IMG/VR virus record: IMGVR_UViG_3300032665_000138
Coordinates: 1-30,378 of that record
Source of the DNA: a virus
Direction: 5' to 3' (one strand)
DNA: 30,378 nt
The notes beneath the pieces were generated by a model. The model saw only the letters and a program-made list of their open reading frames with translations. It searched no databases and had not been told where the DNA came from. The position numbers and the translations under genes are program-made. This document shows, in pieces, positions 9,925-23,054 of the stretch. The stretch's first letter is position 1, and every line of letters starts with the position of its first letter.

Positions 9925-12246
9925 TTACTCCTCGCTTTCTTCAGGAAGGACTGCAATTCGGTCACACCGGCAATTCGGGTGGGCCACGTCATCCGCGGGG
10001 GTGCCGTCATCGAAGGCGCCGTCTACCGGGGCCTCCTTCCCGTCCAGGTCGTCGCACTGGTCGCAGGCATCCGCCTCGGCCGTGAGCCACTGGACCCGCT
10101 CGACGCCGGCCTCCTTGCTGATCTCCATGTTCCCCTTGAGATCAGCCATGGCAGATTCGGTGCGGGAAATTACCTCGGCCCGGTCGGGGCTGAACTCGTA
10201 GGCCTCGTCCAAGGCGTCGGCCAGGCGGTTGTTGGACCAGCCCTCGGTCATGGCCTGCTCGACTAGCTCCCGCACACCGTCCTTGGTGGTCTGGCTGATC
10301 CCCACGATCTGCTCGGCGGCGTGGGCTTCGGCCCAGGCGATGCCCCGCTCGTTCGCCAGCTTGAGCATGGCGTCCGTGGCGTTCAGGGTCTGACCGGCTG
10401 CCGCCGCCCCGCCCTGGTAGAGGTCCAGGGCCTGAGCCTGCAGGAGCGCCCGGAAGCGGTTGAAGTCCTCGTCGGTGACGATGTTGGCGATGGGTTCGCC
10501 GGGGGCCTTCGCCAGCTTGTGTTCGGTAGCCCGAACCCGGGAGATGGCTGCCTTGCGGATCCGGTCCAGTTCCTTGGCCGCCTTCAGGGTGTAGGAAGCC
10601 TCCATCCGGAGCAGGTCTTCCCGGTTGCGGCTGGGCAGAGCCTTCCGGTTCTTGGCCATCTTCTCGGCTGAGCGCCCCGAGGACTGGGAGAGGGCCGGTT
10701 GCTTAGGTTTCCCCGCCGCGGGGGGCTGCTTATCAGTGGACGCAGGCTGGGCCTGGCCTTGGGGGTCGGAGGCGGCTCCGGGGGGCGGGGAAAGGGGGTC
10801 CGGCTTCGGCGTGGGCGGCGTGGGCTTGGGGAGGCCCAGCTTCTCGGCGGCGGCAGCTGCATCCAGGATCCCAGCCGTCACCAGGGCAGCCAGAGCCTGG
10901 GCCTCGGGCAGGGTCGGGATGGCGTCGTCGGGGAGCGCGTCCAGCCCCAGGCTGTCGCGGACCTCGTTGCGCTTCACCGTGCCGTTGGCGAGGTTGATGT
11001 TGTTGACCTGGGCCCGAACCAGCGGATCAAGCGCCTCCTGGTCAGTCCAGGCGAACTCGCACTCCGGGCGGCCCATCCGGACGAGCATGTCGTCCACGAT
11101 GGACTTCCACCACTTCTTCAGGGGGACCAGGCCCTCCTTCTGAGCGGTCTCCTGGGCGGTCTCCGCGGTGCCACGGTTCATCATCTTGACGAACGGGGTG
11201 GGCGGCAGGCTGAAGGCGTAGCAGACCACGCGAGCCAGCCACTCATCGAACTCGTCCTTGAGCGGGTCCTTCTTCGTGTTCTCGAACTTGCACTCGTTCC
11301 CACCGGGGATCAGCAGGGGCCGCCCGCGGCGCTGCTGGCTGTTGCCGCGGAACAGGCTCTCCCAGTGGGCCTCGAGCTTGATGATCTCCTTGGAGTTCCA
11401 CTCCTTGGGGACGCCGATGATCAGGTCGGGCGCCGAGCCGTCCGTGTACCAGGCGAGCTGGTGGAACTGGCGGCGCAGGCAGAGGTTGACCGTGATGATG
11501 ATCTGCTCGACGCAAGACAGGCCGTAGCCCTTGTGGTTCCTGGGGCGCCGCGGGGCATAGATCAACTGGTCCCGGGTGTAGCCCACCGCGGGCATCCCCT
11601 TGATGATCTGGGTGTAGGCCTCACCCAGCATCGGCACCCGGCCCCAGGGGTCCAGGCGGAGCGTGATGGTGCCGCCGTGGATCGGCTCGAAGCCCCACAC
11701 ATCGCCCTTCAGGTCGCGGCGAACGTAGGCCGTGGCGCAGTCCCCGACGAAGTGATCCTCGAGCAGCCGCCCCTGCCACTGCTCCCAGGGCTCACGCTTG
11801 TCGGGCGACTGGAAGAACTTGACCAGGTCCTCCTGCACATCCCCGAACTTCTTACCGCCGGGCGCCCTGCGGAGCCGGATGGTCCACTCCTGGCCGGCCA
11901 TCTGGTCCTTGCGCGTCTCGATGCAGAGCCGGGTCAGGTCGTGGATGTCCGCCAGGCTGTAGAGCTCCTGGAACGGGGTCATCTCCTCCGAGCGGGGCGC
12001 CCACTGCATGTTCGCCGTGAGGGGGTAGTCCCGCATCCGGCCCGCCACCTCTTCGGGGGCGACGGGGACCATGGGCGTGCCGGGACCGAAGAACTGCTCA
12101 GCCGGGGCGGTGCCATCCCAGACCCAGCGGGCCAGGGCGGCAGCGCGGGAGACCAGGGAGGCGGGCTGGGGCTTCGCCGGGGTCATGGTGGAGACGTCCA
12201 CCACGCGGCCATCGCCCAGGGTGCCGGAGAGGAGGGGGGTGGCCAT
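9925..12246 (-). CDS. Portal protein fused to a MuF-like head morphogenesis domain
   Basis: A 773-residue protein with two parts. Residues about 80-465 match the portal: 'TRLCIETRKDQMAGQEW', 'QWQGRLLEDHFVGDCATAYV', 'YTRDQLIYAPRRPRNHKGYG' and 'FSLPPTPFVKMMNRGTAETA' are typical. A Pro-rich linker (about 470-525) follows. The C-terminal part (about 540-773) is a MuF/SPP1 gp7-like domain: 'VISRTESAMAD' and then C728, C731, H756, C759 and C761 in 'ACDQCDDLDG' and 'HPNCRCD', the family's metal-binding-like pattern. The portal forms the DNA gate; MuF proteins are minor head proteins. Usually these are two genes; here they are one frame. The ATG overlaps the upstream stop (TGATG). Confidence 0.92.
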   Translation of the reverse strand: MATPLLSGTLGDGRVVDVSTMTPAKPQPASLVSRAAALARWVWDGTAPAEQFFGPGTPMVPVAPEEVAGRMRDYPLTANMQWAPRSEEMTPFQELYSLADIHDLTRLCIETRKDQMAGQEWTIRLRRAPGGKKFGDVQEDLVKFFQSPDKREPWEQWQGRLLEDHFVGDCATAYVRRDLKGDVWGFEPIHGGTITLRLDPWGRVPMLGEAYTQIIKGMPAVGYTRDQLIYAPRRPRNHKGYGLSCVEQIIITVNLCLRRQFHQLAWYTDGSAPDLIIGVPKEWNSKEIIKLEAHWESLFRGNSQQRRGRPLLIPGGNECKFENTKKDPLKDEFDEWLARVVCYAFSLPPTPFVKMMNRGTAETAQETAQKEGLVPLKKWWKSIVDDMLVRMGRPECEFAWTDQEALDPLVRAQVNNINLANGTVKRNEVRDSLGLDALPDDAIPTLPEAQALAALVTAGILDAAAAAEKLGLPKPTPPTPKPDPLSPPPGAASDPQGQAQPASTDKQPPAAGKPKQPALSQSSGRSAEKMAKNRKALPSRNREDLLRMEASYTLKAAKELDRIRKAAISRVRATEHKLAKAPGEPIANIVTDEDFNRFRALLQAQALDLYQGGAAAAGQTLNATDAMLKLANERGIAWAEAHAAEQIVGISQTTKDGVRELVEQAMTEGWSNNRLADALDEAYEFSPDRAEVISRTESAMADLKGNMEISKEAGVERVQWLTAEADACDQCDDLDGKEAPVDGAFDDGTPADDVAHPNCRCDRIAVLPEESEE

Positions 12247-17499: not shown

Positions 17500-17720
17500 T
17501 CCGGCTCCCTCATAAGACGCCCTAACTTGGCTAAACGCACGATATAGAACACCCTGTCGTACTCGACAATTCCCTCGTCCTGCCACTTGTTCACCAGGTG
17601 GTAGACCCGCTCGGACCGCATGGTGGTGAAGGCCGGCTGGAGGTCGATCTCCTGTTCCGGGTCCGGCACGCTCATAATTGAATTGAGTAAACGGGTTTCG
17701 TCGTCTGGACGGTCTGGCAT
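17496..17720 (-). CDS. Small protein resembling a winged helix, start overlapping terminase
   Basis: A 74-residue protein, MPDRPDDETRLLNSIMSVPD to LGRLMREPE. The part 'MRSERVYHLVNKWQDEGIVE' followed by 'YDRVFYIVRLAKLGRLM' looks like the recognition helix and wing of a small winged-helix DNA-binding protein (inference). Two starts are possible. The ATG at 17720 has a strong AAGGAG five bases upstream and overlaps the terminase end by 49 bases. The ATG at 17675 would give 59 residues and the usual ATGA overlap with the terminase stop, but without a good ribosome site. I chose 17720. Confidence 0.6.
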   Translation of the reverse strand: MPDRPDDETRLLNSIMSVPDPEQEIDLQPAFTTMRSERVYHLVNKWQDEGIVEYDRVFYIVRLAKLGRLMREPE

Positions 17721-19186
17721 TCCTTCTCCTTTCCCTCAAGCCAACCCAGAAAACCCTGGGCGGTCATGCCAAGCACGATGTAGCGCACCAGCTGCGTGAA
17801 GGCGTCCACGTCATCGTCGTGGGCCATCTTCGGGAAGCCGTAGAGGTGATTCAGGAAGTCGTCCACCCATTCGGCGCCTTCCGGCAGGTAGACATTCCCC
17901 GCCTCCCAGAACGGCGCGCAGGTGTTCGCCCGCGACACCTTGTCCGTGTCGGCCTTGACCGCCCGCACGGGCAATAGGGTGTCGTTCGTGAGCTCCTGGA
18001 TGAGCGACTGGCCGGATGCCTTGTCCTCGATCAGGAACACGTCCGGCCGCCAGCGGTCGCCCATCAACCGAGCCTTAACCTTCAGGTCGGGATAGCTCGC
18101 CTGCTCTTTCCACCGGTCCAACAGGTAGAGCCCGGCGTGGCCCGCCTCCTCGCACTGGCCCGCGGCCAGAATCACACTGAAGTCCGCGCTTTCCTTTTCC
18201 TTGAAGGCGGTGTCCGCCGACAGGAAGGTGGCTGTGAACTTCGGGATGCCACGATAGAACTTGACGTAGCCCCGCCGGAAGATCTCGCCTTCCTTGGCCG
18301 AGGGGCGCTGCTGGTGCTGGCCGGCATAACCCGAGCTGCCCTTGATCCGCTTCTCGGCCGCCACCACGTCAGGCGGAAAACGTGCGGGGAAGAACAACTC
18401 GCCCTCCACCGTGCGGGGGTCCGTCCACCCCAACGGCGTGGGCACGAAGTCCGGGTCGGTAGGCTGGGGCGCCTCGTACTCCTGCCGGACGATCAGGAAG
18501 GCCCAGTCCTGCTTGTCCTTCTCCAGGATATGGCCAGTCAGGTCCTCTTCATGCAGGCGCTGCTGGATGATGCAGCGGTGCCCTGTGGTGAGGTCGTTGA
18601 GCCGGTTCGATGCGGCGTCATCCCACCAGGTGATGATCTGGTCCCGCTCCGCCTTGCCGCCCGCGGCGTCATTCGGGTCATCCACGAACATGTCGTCCGC
18701 CCGGTCCCCGGTGATCTTCGACCCGGCCGGCTGAGCCTTACGGAAGCCCGTCCGGCTGTTCCGGTAATGCCCCTTGGCATTCTGATCCTTGGACCACCCC
18801 CAGGAGGGCTTGAACAGCCGCTGGTACCAGTCGCTGTCCAGGATGTCGCGGCACTTCATGCTGTCCCGCATGGCCACGCCCTCGTTCCCAGAGAGGAACA
18901 GGCCCCGCCAGGACGGGTTGCGCGTCCACATCCAGGCGGGCACGGCCACAGACAGGATGCTGGACTTCATGGAGCCGGGCGGCACGTTGATGATCAAGTT
19001 CCGAATGACCCGGCCGTCCTTGACCAGCCGATCCTCCAGGAGGGCCTGCACATGGTCACAGATCACGTCGATGTGCCAGTTCCAGACCAGGGGTGTAGTG
19101 GGCTCGTAGATGGGCCAGGACTGTTTGACGAACTCGGCGAGGGACAGACGCCCCTTGGCTGCGCGAATCCGGTCCAACCGGTTCAT
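17672..19186 (-). CDS. terL: Terminase large subunit
   Basis: A 504-residue packaging motor and nuclease. The ATPase part has a Walker A-like 'VPPGSMKS' at 68-75 and a Walker B 'ADDMFVDD' at about 163-170. The nuclease part has Asp325 in 'FLSADTAFKE', Glu387 in 'FLIEDKASG' and Asp457-459/Asp461 in 'MAHDDDVDAF', a RNase-H-like metal site. The length is usual for the family. It pumps DNA into the prohead through the portal and cuts the concatemer. Its ATG overlaps the small subunit's stop (ATGA). Unusually, the portal is over 5 kb away rather than next to it. Confidence 0.95.
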   Translation of the reverse strand: MNRLDRIRAAKGRLSLAEFVKQSWPIYEPTTPLVWNWHIDVICDHVQALLEDRLVKDGRVIRNLIINVPPGSMKSSILSVAVPAWMWTRNPSWRGLFLSGNEGVAMRDSMKCRDILDSDWYQRLFKPSWGWSKDQNAKGHYRNSRTGFRKAQPAGSKITGDRADDMFVDDPNDAAGGKAERDQIITWWDDAASNRLNDLTTGHRCIIQQRLHEEDLTGHILEKDKQDWAFLIVRQEYEAPQPTDPDFVPTPLGWTDPRTVEGELFFPARFPPDVVAAEKRIKGSSGYAGQHQQRPSAKEGEIFRRGYVKFYRGIPKFTATFLSADTAFKEKESADFSVILAAGQCEEAGHAGLYLLDRWKEQASYPDLKVKARLMGDRWRPDVFLIEDKASGQSLIQELTNDTLLPVRAVKADTDKVSRANTCAPFWEAGNVYLPEGAEWVDDFLNHLYGFPKMAHDDDVDAFTQLVRYIVLGMTAQGFLGWLEGKEKECQTVQTTKPVYSIQL

Positions 19187-19749
19187 GTGATACCCCGGGC
19201 CTTGGTCTCCAAGCGCTCCAGGTGGTCCAGTTCCTCCATGGACAGGTTGGAATAGTCGGGCTCGTCCTCTGGGGTCTCAGGGAGTGCTTCTTTGCCCTTA
19301 CTCGCAGCCAGTAGGGCTGTGCCCGTCTGTGCTGCCTGGTTGGCCGTCACGGTGATGGCGGCGATGTCCCGCAGCACCTCCGAGTTGACCTTGCCATCCT
19401 GTCCCAGGGCCTGCTTCACCTTCCCATTGGCGATCTCAGCCAACTGGGCAGCCGTGTCAGAGCCCGCCTTAGCGGCCCGCGTCAGGTTCAGGCTGATGGA
19501 CTTCAGGTCATCAGCCAGCCTCACAGCGAGCGGTCGTTCCGATTCAGGAAGAGCCGCAAGCGCCTTACTTGCTTCAACTAGTTTGTTTGCAACCGTTCGT
19601 ATTCGTTCTTTCTTTTCTGAACACCGTCCAGAAATGTTTGATTTAGAAACGCCAAACTCCGCCGCAAGCGCACCCATGGAGTCCCCAGCGACCACCCGCC
19701 GCTTAATTTCGTCCCACTGCTCGGGAGTAAGCTTGGAGTGACGTCCCAT
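19183..19749 (-). CDS. terS: Terminase small subunit
   Basis: A 188-residue DNA-recognition protein directly upstream of the large subunit. Residues about 8-45 form a helix-turn-helix ('LTPEQWDEIKRRVVAG', 'MGALAAEFGVSKSNISGRC'); the middle is long helix with 'LAVRLADDLKSISLNLTRAAK', and the end is acidic ('EDEPDYSNLSMEELDHLERL'). This is the normal small-terminase outline, with a DNA-binding head, an oligomerising helix core and a C-terminal contact to the large subunit. Part of the gene (about 19560-19660) is clearly richer in A and T than its surroundings, which may mark the packaging site. Coupled to both neighbours. Confidence 0.85.
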   Translation of the reverse strand: MGRHSKLTPEQWDEIKRRVVAGDSMGALAAEFGVSKSNISGRCSEKKERIRTVANKLVEASKALAALPESERPLAVRLADDLKSISLNLTRAAKAGSDTAAQLAEIANGKVKQALGQDGKVNSEVLRDIAAITVTANQAAQTGTALLAASKGKEALPETPEDEPDYSNLSMEELDHLERLETKARGIT

Positions 19750-20150
19750 TAGGCCGCCACTTGTCCCTCAAACTGAGCCAGCGCCGATACCACCGAGTCA
19801 GCCCAGAATGCAATGGCACCCTTGGCAACCAGCAGCGCCAGCATGGACACCTGGGCATTCGTGGGCTTGCCACCAGGCGCCTTGACCTCAATGTAGATCG
19901 CACGCCCAGAAGGTGGAACGACCCCCACGAGGTCAGGGAACCCTGCAGGGGTGGACGAGTAGCCCCCCTGACCCGCAGCACGCCCCTGACGCATCCCTGC
20001 GGCCCCGGAATCGACATGGACGAGGGCAATATTGAATTTCAACCTGAAGGCGTCCTGGATGGCTCGCTGAACGGCCTTCTCGGGTTGAGCCTTTCGTTTG
20101 CGCTTGGGGGCGCAAAGACCAAGGCCCCAGACAGGGGAAGGGATAGTCAT
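19749..20150 (-). CDS. VRR-NUC domain nuclease
   Basis: A 133-residue protein. 'GFPDLVGVVPPSG' and then 'AIYIEVKAPGGKPTNAQ' give the PD-(D/E)xK catalytic set, with Asp73, Glu88 and Lys90 and Gln100 after them, as in phage VRR-NUC nucleases. Arg/Lys-rich text at 15-20 may help bind DNA. The ATG at 20150 is preceded by GAGGTG at suitable distance; a GTG at 20156 also exists. The family acts on branched or flap DNA. Here it is the first gene of the packaging block and is coupled by TAATG to the small terminase, so it may process DNA before packaging (inference). Confidence 0.88.
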   Translation of the reverse strand: MTIPSPVWGLGLCAPKRKRKAQPEKAVQRAIQDAFRLKFNIALVHVDSGAAGMRQGRAAGQGGYSSTPAGFPDLVGVVPPSGRAIYIEVKAPGGKPTNAQVSMLALLVAKGAIAFWADSVVSALAQFEGQVAA

Positions 20151-20156
20151 GGGCAC

Positions 20157-20403
20157 ACCTCACGGTTGAGAGGGGCCAACCCCTCTCGTTTTGAAAACCC
20201 CTCTCCGAAAATTTCCTTAGAGAGATAAGGGATAGAGAGAGGAGAGAGGGGTGAGAGAGGTATATAGAGAAAGGACGTAGAAACAGACAGTGAAGAAAAG
20301 GGAGGATTGGAAATCGACCTCCGGCCTCTCACCCCTCTCAGACGGCATAGCTGCGCACTTCCAACCCCTCTCGGAGACCACCCTCTCACCCCTCTCACCC
20401 CTC
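20157..20403. repeat. Non-coding region with 9-base repeats TGAGAGGGG and a purine-rich tract
   Basis: No gene is supported here. The plus strand has six copies of CCCCTCTC at 20180, 20198, 20332, 20365, 20389 and 20398 (first bases), and near copies at 20325 and 20381. The last three form a tandem run of 9-base units that reaches into the primase stop codon. Two inverted copies, GAGAGGGG, lie at 20168 and 20244. Between about 20216 and 20305 the plus strand is almost only A and G. Candidate roles are an origin, an operator array or a processing site; nothing in the sequence decides this. Confidence 0.8.
20168..20187. other. Perfect 8-base hairpin upstream of the VRR-NUC gene
   Basis: GAGAGGGG (20168-20175) and CCCCTCTC (20180-20187) form a perfect stem with a four-base CCAA loop on the plus strand. 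It ends about 17 bases before the nuclease ATG on the minus strand and has only four Ts on the plus strand after it, so it is not a convincing terminator. In the leftward mRNA it would lie just ahead of the ribosome site of the nuclease gene and could control translation or be cut by a processing enzyme (inference). Confidence 0.55.
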
Positions 20404-22446
20404 TCATTCCTGCGGAGGAATCCATACCGCAACCCTTCTTTCTCCAGTGAGTTGTCTCGTCCACCCATTCCGTCGAAGGAGTTTCCCGAGCCTTTGGCCG
20501 GCGGCGTTCGTGTGCTGCGCGGCCGGGATGCCCATGTGAGTGAGGAGGCCCGACAGGCTGTAGCCGGCCGGTCGCTCCTGAGTAGCTCGACGGGCGGCGC
20601 TGTCGATGAGTTCCACCGCCTGGTGGATCAACTCCTCCCAGGGGTCCTCCGCCTCGAACCGGGTGGCATCCTTGGCCCGCAGGTTCTCCCGGGTCTGGTC
20701 CAGCCAGTGGGGAATCTTGTGGGCCTCCAAGTCCATAGCCTCGGCCCAGAGCTGCTCGCGCCAGTCTCTGAGGAGGTCCAGGTCGATCTGCGTGCAGTTG
20801 ATCGGCCAGAAGCGCCGGGAGCCTGTGGGGTCAAAAAGGAAGGATTCCTGGTTTGTCGTGCCGACCAGGAATCCCGAGCGCTTGAAGGCCAGGGCTGTGC
20901 GACCGTAGGGTGGGCGGTAGACATCCTCGGAAGAGGAGAGGAAGGACTTCACCCGCTCGATGGCCTTGGTCCCGGTGGTGTGGTCCAGCTCGGCAAGCTC
21001 GGTGCACCAATTCCGGTGCATAACCATGAAGCCGTCCTTGGATTCCACGTCCAGGGGGCTGTCGCCAAACCACTGGTCCCCGATGAGGGTGTGCCAGAAG
21101 GTGGACTTGCCGAGCCCCTGGTTCCCAACGAGGACGGGAAGGGTGTCGAGCTTCGTGCCGGGCCGCAGGACGCGCCGGCAGGCGCCGACCATCGTGCACC
21201 GCAGGTAGTGGGTGGACAGGGGGCTCTCGGCGAGGAGGACCTCCTTGGCCACCCGGTGGATCCGCTCCTCCCCGTCCCAACGCAGGGCCTTCAGCCACTC
21301 CCGGACGGGGTGGATGGTGGTCTCCATGGCTTGGGCCATGATCTTGGAGGCCATCTCCTCACGGCCGAAGGCCACCCCGTGATGATCCTCGATCCGCTCC
21401 TGCGCCCAGTCGATGAAAGCGTCAGTCACGTCCTTCTTGTTGAACATGACAGCCTGGGTCATCTCGTTCATGGCCAGCGCCGGTCCCCAGGCGGGGTCGA
21501 GCCGGAGGATCTTGGCGAGGTTGCCCGGGGTCTTCTTGATCGTCCCGTTCTTGGTGTGAGTGAGGACGTCCTGGAGGGTGACTTCGCCCCCCTCGTCCAG
21601 GGTGGGGGCGGGCGCCAGTGGGGTGTAGGCCGTGCGCAGAGGCTCGGCCTCGAGGAGGTAGCCGAAGGGCTCGGACCCGTTCTCCCGGGCGCTGGTGACC
21701 TTGGTGAGGAGGTCAGACTCAGACCAGGGGGGCACGCACTTCGAATTCCACGCCATGAGGTATTCGAGTGCCTGCTGGTCGCCCAGGTCGAAGCCGCGGA
21801 CCAGTTTGCATGCCACCCGGAAGGTGTGCACGTCGCCGCCCTGGCCTTCCACGGCGCCCGGTGTGGCGTCTAGGTAGGCCACCACGCGCTTGTCCCCGTC
21901 AGCATGCGCCACACGGGGCAGGGGCGTGACCCGGGCCCCAAGCCAGGCCGGTTGGAATAGGGGGAGGGTGGCGCCGGGTGCCCAGTTGCCCTCCTCCTCG
22001 TACATCGCGCCGTTCGGATGGATCGAGCCGGGCGCCACGACATAGCCGCCGTCGCCGCGCACGTCCAGAGCCATGCCACCTAGCTTCACATTGTTCTTGA
22101 TGGTGACGCCCGGGTGGCGGAAGAAGAAGTGCTTCCCTTTGCCGGTGCGGGTGCGCATGGGGCTCGGGTGGTTCGCCTGGAGCCAGTTCACGGCGTCCAG
22201 GCTGTCGCCGTCCACCGCCACCAGCTCGGAGATGGCGCCCGTGACGATGCCGATGTTCAGGTCCACCCCGCCGTCGAACCACTCGCGCACCTCGTCAACG
22301 GTGGCGCGGTGCTCCTGGTAGGGCTTCCATGAGGCCAGGGCGGGGCGCTTGTCCCGGGCCTTGAGGGGAATGACTGAGAACCCCAGGGACAGGAGGCGCA
22401 GTGCCTGGTCCAGGGGGTTCGGACGGTGGTGAGGGGCGGCGGTCAT
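20404..22446 (-). CDS. Primase-polymerase with VapE/VirE-type helicase domain
   Basis: A 680-residue replication protein. The N-terminal part (about 10-200) is a PrimPol domain: 'LLSLGFSVIPLKARDKRPAL', 'ISELVAVDGDSLDAV' with Asp79 and Asp81 as likely metal ligands, and 'RTGKGKHFFFRHPG'. The C-terminal part (about 330-640) is a VirE/VapE-like ATPase with Walker A 'GNQGLGKS' (441-448), 'NWCTELAEL' and 'GTTNQESFLFDPTGSRRFW', the family's signature. It would prime and unwind phage DNA. The repeat-rich region right after its stop is a candidate origin. It is coupled to the HNH gene upstream by ATGA. Confidence 0.92.
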   Translation of the reverse strand: MTAAPHHRPNPLDQALRLLSLGFSVIPLKARDKRPALASWKPYQEHRATVDEVREWFDGGVDLNIGIVTGAISELVAVDGDSLDAVNWLQANHPSPMRTRTGKGKHFFFRHPGVTIKNNVKLGGMALDVRGDGGYVVAPGSIHPNGAMYEEEGNWAPGATLPLFQPAWLGARVTPLPRVAHADGDKRVVAYLDATPGAVEGQGGDVHTFRVACKLVRGFDLGDQQALEYLMAWNSKCVPPWSESDLLTKVTSARENGSEPFGYLLEAEPLRTAYTPLAPAPTLDEGGEVTLQDVLTHTKNGTIKKTPGNLAKILRLDPAWGPALAMNEMTQAVMFNKKDVTDAFIDWAQERIEDHHGVAFGREEMASKIMAQAMETTIHPVREWLKALRWDGEERIHRVAKEVLLAESPLSTHYLRCTMVGACRRVLRPGTKLDTLPVLVGNQGLGKSTFWHTLIGDQWFGDSPLDVESKDGFMVMHRNWCTELAELDHTTGTKAIERVKSFLSSSEDVYRPPYGRTALAFKRSGFLVGTTNQESFLFDPTGSRRFWPINCTQIDLDLLRDWREQLWAEAMDLEAHKIPHWLDQTRENLRAKDATRFEAEDPWEELIHQAVELIDSAARRATQERPAGYSLSGLLTHMGIPAAQHTNAAGQRLGKLLRRNGWTRQLTGERRVAVWIPPQE

Positions 22447-23054
22447 TCATCACCCCGTTTTGGAGCATCAGGAAGATCGCTCGGCCATCCCCACCGGGAG
22501 AGCCCACCACGGTACTCGGCCAATCGCATAAAAACCTTGTTTACACGCTCAGCGGGAACCGCATATATCACAGTTAGCTCAACGAATTTCTGGAACAATA
22601 GGCCGCGCCGCTCAAAGAATGGAGCACTGGCGACAGAATGATTCCCTGCTCCCCACGTAAAGACGTGCCTCGTGATTGAATTGTCCGGAAAAGGGACAAG
22701 AATAATATCGCCCGGAACAAACCTAGATCCCGGGATCACCTCACATTCCCAACCCGCATTCCAGCAGATTATGGAGTTGGTAAGATCCTCTCCTCCCCAG
22801 TCTTCATCAATTCCTGGTGCCCCGAACTCGCTTGGATGGAAGTCGTCGGCGCCCTTTTCGAGATTGCACCTTTGGCATAGGACCCTGAGATTGTCGGGTG
22901 TGTTGTGGCCGCCCTTAGAGACGGGGATGATGTGGTCAATATGGAGTGGCCCGAAGGAGCCACAAATTAAGCACTGGCTTCCATCACGTTCAATGATGAG
23001 GGCGCGCAAGGAAGGGGAAATGGGTCGGCGAAAGGTCTGTGTGAGTGTGCTCAT
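22443..23054 (-). CDS. HNH endonuclease with an unrecognised C-terminal domain
   Basis: A 203-residue protein. Residues about 12-75 are an HNH domain: Cys28/Cys31 in 'CLIC', His38-Asp40-His41 in 'HIDHIIP', Asn55 in 'TPDNLRVLC' and Cys60/Cys63 in 'CQRC', so the ββα-metal site and its zinc ligands are complete. Residues about 76-203 are a second domain without a recognised family ('CEVIPGSRFVPGDIILVPFP', 'VFTWGAGNHSVASAPFFERR'). The gene is visibly richer in A and T than its neighbours, which suggests recent transfer, as for homing-type HNH genes. It is coupled to both sides by ATGA, so it is integrated in the operon. Confidence 0.85.
   Translation of the reverse strand: MSTLTQTFRRPISPSLRALIIERDGSQCLICGSFGPLHIDHIIPVSKGGHNTPDNLRVLCQRCNLEKGADDFHPSEFGAPGIDEDWGGEDLTNSIICWNAGWECEVIPGSRFVPGDIILVPFPDNSITRHVFTWGAGNHSVASAPFFERRGLLFQKFVELTVIYAVPAERVNKVFMRLAEYRGGLSRWGWPSDLPDAPKRGDE

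Follow-up and report, generated by a model that had tools for sequence, protein, structure and literature searches.

A candidate self-loading-helicase origin of replication beside the Prim-Pol/VapE primase-helicase gene of a temperate tailed phage

The virus record analysed here (the window) is 30,378 bases long. It contains genes for a large terminase (17672-19186), portal/head-morphogenesis, neck and tape-measure proteins, an integrase and a RecE-like exonuclease, and on this combination of terminase, head and tail genes, integrase and exonuclease we read it as the genome of a temperate tailed phage. One of its products, a 773-aa protein encoded on the minus strand (9925-12246), has portal matches in its first part and head-morphogenesis/minor head matches at its C-terminus, and is apparently a portal-head morphogenesis fusion. 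The gene at 20404-22446 (minus strand) encodes a Prim-Pol/VapE primase-helicase of 680 aa (PF09250, E 8e-27; PF05272, E 6e-65), the proposed initiator, in which an N-terminal Prim-Pol domain is followed by a VapE-type AAA+ helicase core and a C-terminal winged helix. Directly upstream of it, and overlapping it by 4 bases, is an HNH endonuclease gene (22443-23054, minus strand) with a weak match to the HNH region of IscB, possibly a homing endonuclease. On the downstream side, approximately 250 non-coding bases separate the primase-helicase gene from a gene for a VRR-NUC nuclease (19749-20156, minus strand; PF08774, E 6e-7) with a GTG start and an in-frame ATG at 20150. The nuclease gene is the boundary of the non-coding region, a neighbour lying outside the candidate origin described below.

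The non-coding region is occupied by short repeats. An 8-base core, GAGAGGGG, is found in six copies on the minus strand and two inverted copies, all within 20168-20405 and none elsewhere in the window. No other 8-mer of the window clusters to this degree. When the region was shuffled 2,000 times with its dinucleotide composition kept, the count for any 8-mer never exceeded five, as against the eight observed in 250 bp. The original prediction spoke of six copies of a 9-base unit and two inverted ones, counts that hold for the 8-base core; an exact match to the full 9-mer, TGAGAGGGG, occurs at only four places (three on the minus strand, one on the plus strand), and the remaining copies are off by one or two bases. 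The full inverted complement is larger than the two copies with the exact core, consisting of three tandem units at 20234-20260 and one unit at 20167-20175. Its statement that the tandem units extend to the primase stop codon was confirmed, as the helicase TGA (20404-20406) lies inside the unit 20398-20406, of which it makes up the first three bases.

This unit belongs to a first, direct set (20323-20406, minus strand) with units at 20398-20406, 20389-20397, 20380-20388, 20365-20373, 20332-20340 and 20323-20331, the tandem ones being spaced at 9-bp steps. A second, inverted set (20234-20260, plus strand) has tandem 9-bp units at 20252-20260, 20243-20251 and 20234-20242, only one of which retains the exact core, two of the three being degenerate. 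A third group (20167-20206) combines direct units at 20198-20206 and 20180-20188 with an inverted one at 20167-20175; the units 20180-20188 and 20167-20175 together form a palindrome. Between the iteron sets, and overlapping them, is an AT-rich, purine/pyrimidine-biased stretch (20208-20307), a candidate melting region, which includes TATATA and is, by nearest-neighbour energies, the least stable 100 bp of the window (42% GC versus 64% for the window). The inverted set is followed by the box AAGGAAATTTTC (20207-20218, minus strand) of the pattern AAGG(0-3 nt)TTTT. Read along the gene, six direct units come first, then the AT-rich stretch and three inverted units; after the AAGGAAATTTTC box there are two more direct units and a last, inverted one. 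A clear switch of GC skew near 20 kb was not seen, which counts against an origin here. The tract of approximately 90 bases predicted to consist of A and G only was not found: the best 90 bp are 86% purine and the longest pure run measures 18 bp (20234-20251). Because the tract is not pure purine, the accompanying idea of an unusual DNA structure is without support.

The transcript of this region is predicted to fold strongly, and in the clade of the window a reading frame runs through the array without a stop, as might be expected if the repeats were translated or served in RNA processing or termination. However, no Rfam family came near its gathering score, and the sole terminator-like site is on the opposite strand and is no more than shuffles give; we regard this reading as highly improbable. 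A hidden gene across the array was rejected, as the frame is broken in the relatives L079, L011 and L023 and the peptides are of low complexity.

In four IMG/VR contigs with helicases 94-100% identical to that of the window, the array is nearly unchanged base for base; in L010 it has gained one extra 9-bp unit. Two Geothrix loci (Acidobacteriota, Holophagae) with helicases 84-85% identical have kept the array in diverged surroundings: 63/64 and 57/64 of the exact-unit positions are identical to the window, versus 163/216 and 144/216 of the remaining positions. One of these array-bearing loci (L041) is on the chromosome of Geothrix campi. The array being kept in both of them, we suggest that the host of the window phage is probably a Geothrix-like member of the Acidobacteriota. 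The position adjoining the helicase stop is the same in the relatives, where the repeats are neither absent nor random, and on this point the prediction is kept. A scan of viral contigs for a pattern of two tandem units returned, beyond these relatives, L001, L003, L006 and L007, none of them among the recovered helicase relatives. The matches in L003 and L006 are collagen-like coding repeats and that in L001 is an isolated pair, and these were discarded.

At helicase identities of 50-60%, an array of another unit is present at the same place. The unit is TGAGCGACCT in L011 and L015, TCCACGACCT in L012 and L013, TGACCAACCT in L023, TGAGAGACCT in L079 and TGAGCAACC(T) in L081 and, less regularly, in L021. 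Named phages have units of their own: GTAACAACCT in phage APSE-1, GGTCACCCC in Marinobacter phage PS3 and GGAACAACCT in Corynebacterium phage StAB. As dispersed, tandem and inverted copies change in concert, the pattern points to a DNA-binding protein as the constraint on the units. The L079 unit looks intermediate between the TGAGAGGGGT of the window and the TGAGCGACCT / TGAGCAACCT units. L012 and L013, which derive from one sample, have a common helicase, a nearly identical array and different nuclease genes downstream, and would represent the swapping of a downstream gene beside a constant origin.

We then considered 143 VapE loci, drawn from bacterial genomes as well as from viral contigs and phage records, which gave 82 lineages (<80% identity) with enough downstream sequence, and called an array where a 350-nt stretch at the gene's 3' end had at least four copies of one 8-mer. 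Arrays were called in 41 of the 82 lineages and in 99 of 9,118 equal stretches elsewhere in the same loci (1.1%; Fisher p ~1e-54, a nominal value as the control stretches overlap). The other 41 lineages have no array at this place, although in approximately eight of them one is displaced by a few hundred bases or lies within an extended C-terminus. This counts against the origin reading: either their origin is elsewhere, or arrays are not universal. Most of the 41 do have the winged helix, and the notion that an array occurs only where this domain is present gained no support. In L026, L114 and L137, arrays of 7-9 copies are inside an extended open C-terminus of the helicase and not after its stop, and part of the origin may be translated there. 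An array directly 3' of the gene was not found in Pseudomonas phage Haddon and Bacteroides phage BS162P3; Haddon has GTCCCAC-type repeats farther downstream. Streptococcus phage Sfi21, in which the origin is located beside the primase, was left out, the examined stretch stopping short of the 3' end of the putative primase gene.

Across 39 array lineages a common layout emerges. Copies of the second set, at +125 to +175, are inverted with respect to the first in 35 of 41 cases (p 5e-6). Steps of 9 bp clearly predominate, and around +125 the GC content drops from approximately 0.60 to 0.43. Six lineages whose iterons differ (the window, L011, L021, L029, L030 and L033) have the pattern AAGG(0-3 nt)TTTT between +178 and +217, counted from the gene stop. 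Within +0 to +300 it is present in 7 of the 41 array lineages (the seventh being L140, at +262), against 0.011 expected per 300 nt; it is a possible melting or primer-start element. Gibbs sampling for a universal second motif yielded only AT-richness, slightly above shuffles, the AAGG..TTTT pattern being limited to a subset.

Facing copies can also pair with each other, and the serious rival to an iteron origin is a stem-loop origin of the pRN1 type, in which a Prim-Pol/helicase/winged-helix protein would recognise one large hairpin formed by the facing inverted copies. In plasmid pRN1, a stem-loop of approximately 100 nt that directly follows the Prim-Pol/helicase gene is required, and a similar arrangement has been proposed for phage BIP-1 (PMC4234260). 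The window strand does fold better than its shuffles (z -3.4). Nonetheless, a hairpin requires neither multiple identical copies on the same strand at 9-bp steps nor more direct than inverted copies, and the inverted units of the window are degenerate in comparison with the direct ones, which makes for weaker pairing. We therefore consider a pRN1-type hairpin unlikely as the explanation of the array.

The helicase part of the window protein, modelled with AlphaFold2 (pLDDT 90), has its best fold match in PDB entry 7pds (PriRep1, E ~1e-25), to which the window helicase is also similar in sequence (E 6e-38). This entry is titled 'The structure of PriRep1 with dsDNA' and labels the molecule 'similar to D. 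nodosus vapE'; we take PriRep1 to be the SaPI1 Rep, and the entry 7ola, released on the same day, is titled SaPI5 primase-helicase. The C-terminal winged-helix domain of 81 aa (20404-20649, minus strand), our proposed reader of the repeats, is modelled with pLDDT 91 as helix-helix-helix-hairpin, and its nearest PDB folds are mostly winged-helix regulators, with weak matches, none below E 0.001. With core identity controlled, unit similarity correlates with winged-helix identity (partial Mantel r 0.163, p 0.001), modestly and with phylogeny partly controlled; in the reverse test, of unit similarity against core identity with the winged helix controlled, r was 0.098 (p 0.043). Where two helicases have a core identity of at least 0.55 and a winged-helix identity of at least 0.77, they always share the unit.

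Near-twin helicases with different units are particularly informative, as in these the winged helix has diverged more than the core. The pair L106/L116 (core 82%, winged helix 60% identical) has the unrelated units GTGTCCCAG and GGTGCACGA, and the start of the recognition helix differs (WTQWDKIRV and WTQMDRNRV, respectively). In L121/L147 (core 88%, winged helix 76%), the unit changes from TGTCCAAC to TGTCCCAC, and neither 8-mer is present in the array of the other; here, too, a few residues have changed where the recognition helix begins. The way in which the unit follows winged-helix identity suggests, indirectly, that the iterons are bound by the C-terminal domain of the initiator. At the recognition helix of the ACCT-unit relatives there is an R/K-G-x-x-M pattern (QQTRG..M), which is lost in the window lineage.

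The same observations bear on another reading offered in the original prediction, an array of operators between early and late transcription, to which a repressor or activator would bind. The array does sit between replication and packaging genes, and operators are typically repeated short sites. However, the helicase, nuclease and terminase genes are on one common strand, no match to a sigma-70-type promoter was found in 19700-20700, and the unit follows the helicase's own winged helix. Moreover, the genes downstream of the helicase vary among the array lineages, and the array therefore travels with the helicase gene and not with the nuclease or terminase. A dedicated operator array thus seems to us quite improbable, although the helicase could repress transcription here as a side effect. 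Operators and RNA processing sites, the two alternatives originally named, are both less well supported than an origin.

In the PICI satellite islands, origins are located immediately 3' of rep and consist of an AT-rich region flanked by two iteron sets (PMC6092414). Colonies were obtained from a cloned rep-ori plasmid only when rep was present, deletion of ori significantly reduced their number, and autonomous plasmid replication driven by helicase plus origin was demonstrated with those of SaPIbov1, SaPI1, EfCIV583 and EcCICFT073 (PMC6092414). As the window has a homologous helicase, with repeats at the same place and in the same layout, we read the array as the origin of the phage. Very probably, this temperate tailed phage, whose host is probably Geothrix-like, uses the region 20151-20406 as an origin of the SaPI/PICI rep-ori type, at which the helicase loads itself. 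The iteron origin beside the primase-helicase that was predicted originally is thus favoured by comparative evidence, namely the arrays across lineages, the link to the winged helix and the PriRep1 match, and replication from it can be pictured as follows. The winged-helix C-terminus of the Prim-Pol/VapE helicase would bind the 9-bp GAGAGGGGT iterons, and the facing iteron sets, whose layout is observed, would seed helicase rings on either side of 20208-20307. This stretch would then melt, the helicase would load itself, and the fused Prim-Pol domain would prime synthesis.

The origin proposed here belongs to a known kind (rep-ori), met in new surroundings; its generality may be the novel part, as 41 VapE lineages, named phages among them, have the layout at this position. 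The organisation has been described as common to PICIs and to 'no other known bacterial replicon' (PMC6092414), a statement that, given these 41 lineages, looks too narrow. A description of a VapE-wide origin layout was not found in the open-access literature, its absence elsewhere being unproven. In a broader interpretation, which we consider about as likely as not, a single origin architecture would serve the VapE-family phages, with a swappable unit of approximately 9 bp recognised by the winged helix of the helicase itself. Across dozens of lineages, unit and reader would have changed together, and the replicons of satellites such as SaPI1 would form one branch of this phage system. If true, nature would provide a collection of initiator/origin pairs that are orthogonal to one another and from which a recognition code could be recovered; the near-twins L106/L116 and L121/L147 allow such a code to be tested directly, and could be a source of orthogonal replicons for plasmids. 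For most phages that are known from metagenomes alone, the origin has not been mapped. A simple rule predicts it in about half of the VapE family, the named phages APSE-1, Marinobacter PS3 and Corynebacterium StAB included: just 3' of the gene, one looks for a unit of approximately 9 bp that forms a direct set and an inverted set, with an AT dip between them.

Several known systems share parts of this design. The alpha protein of phage P4, also a primase-helicase, reads short repeats with a winged helix at its C-terminus, as proposed for the window; it differs in helicase family and repeats, and ori and crr of P4 are separate sites. Classical plasmid iterons are read by a separate, non-helicase Rep protein. 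They are approximately 20 bp long (PMC2647930), and an origin of this class was rejected for the window, with its 9-bp units and a helicase as the neighbouring gene. Cch2 of SCCmec is likewise a helicase of the self-loading type with repeats downstream of its gene; it binds this region, a putative origin, via the direct repeats, which are needed for binding, and its isolated C-terminal domain binds there specifically, a precedent for the proposed reader role, but it has three iterons of 5 nt and belongs to another helicase family (D5_N/Primase_Cterm) (PMC7581432). With pRN1 of Sulfolobus and the proposed BIP-1 origin, the window shares a non-coding region just 3' of a Prim-Pol/helicase/winged-helix gene; in those, a single large stem-loop with a poorly conserved stem sequence takes the place of the repeated 9-bp units in both orientations (PMC4234260). 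The window is not itself a PICI, a satellite that uses the virion proteins of a helper, as it has its own terminase, portal, neck and tape-measure genes. It differs from the SaPI/PICI rep-ori systems (SaPI1, SaPIbov1, EcCICFT073; PMC6092414, PMC7581432) in that the carrier is a complete temperate phage, probably of Acidobacteriota, and not a satellite island, in the fusion of Prim-Pol to the helicase, in the sequence of the 9-bp unit and in the extra third iteron group. It resembles them in the array immediately 3' of the initiator-helicase gene, in the direct set (20323-20406), inverted set (20234-20260) and AT-rich stretch (20208-20307), and in a Rep-type helicase, homologous to 7pds, with a modelled C-terminal winged helix.
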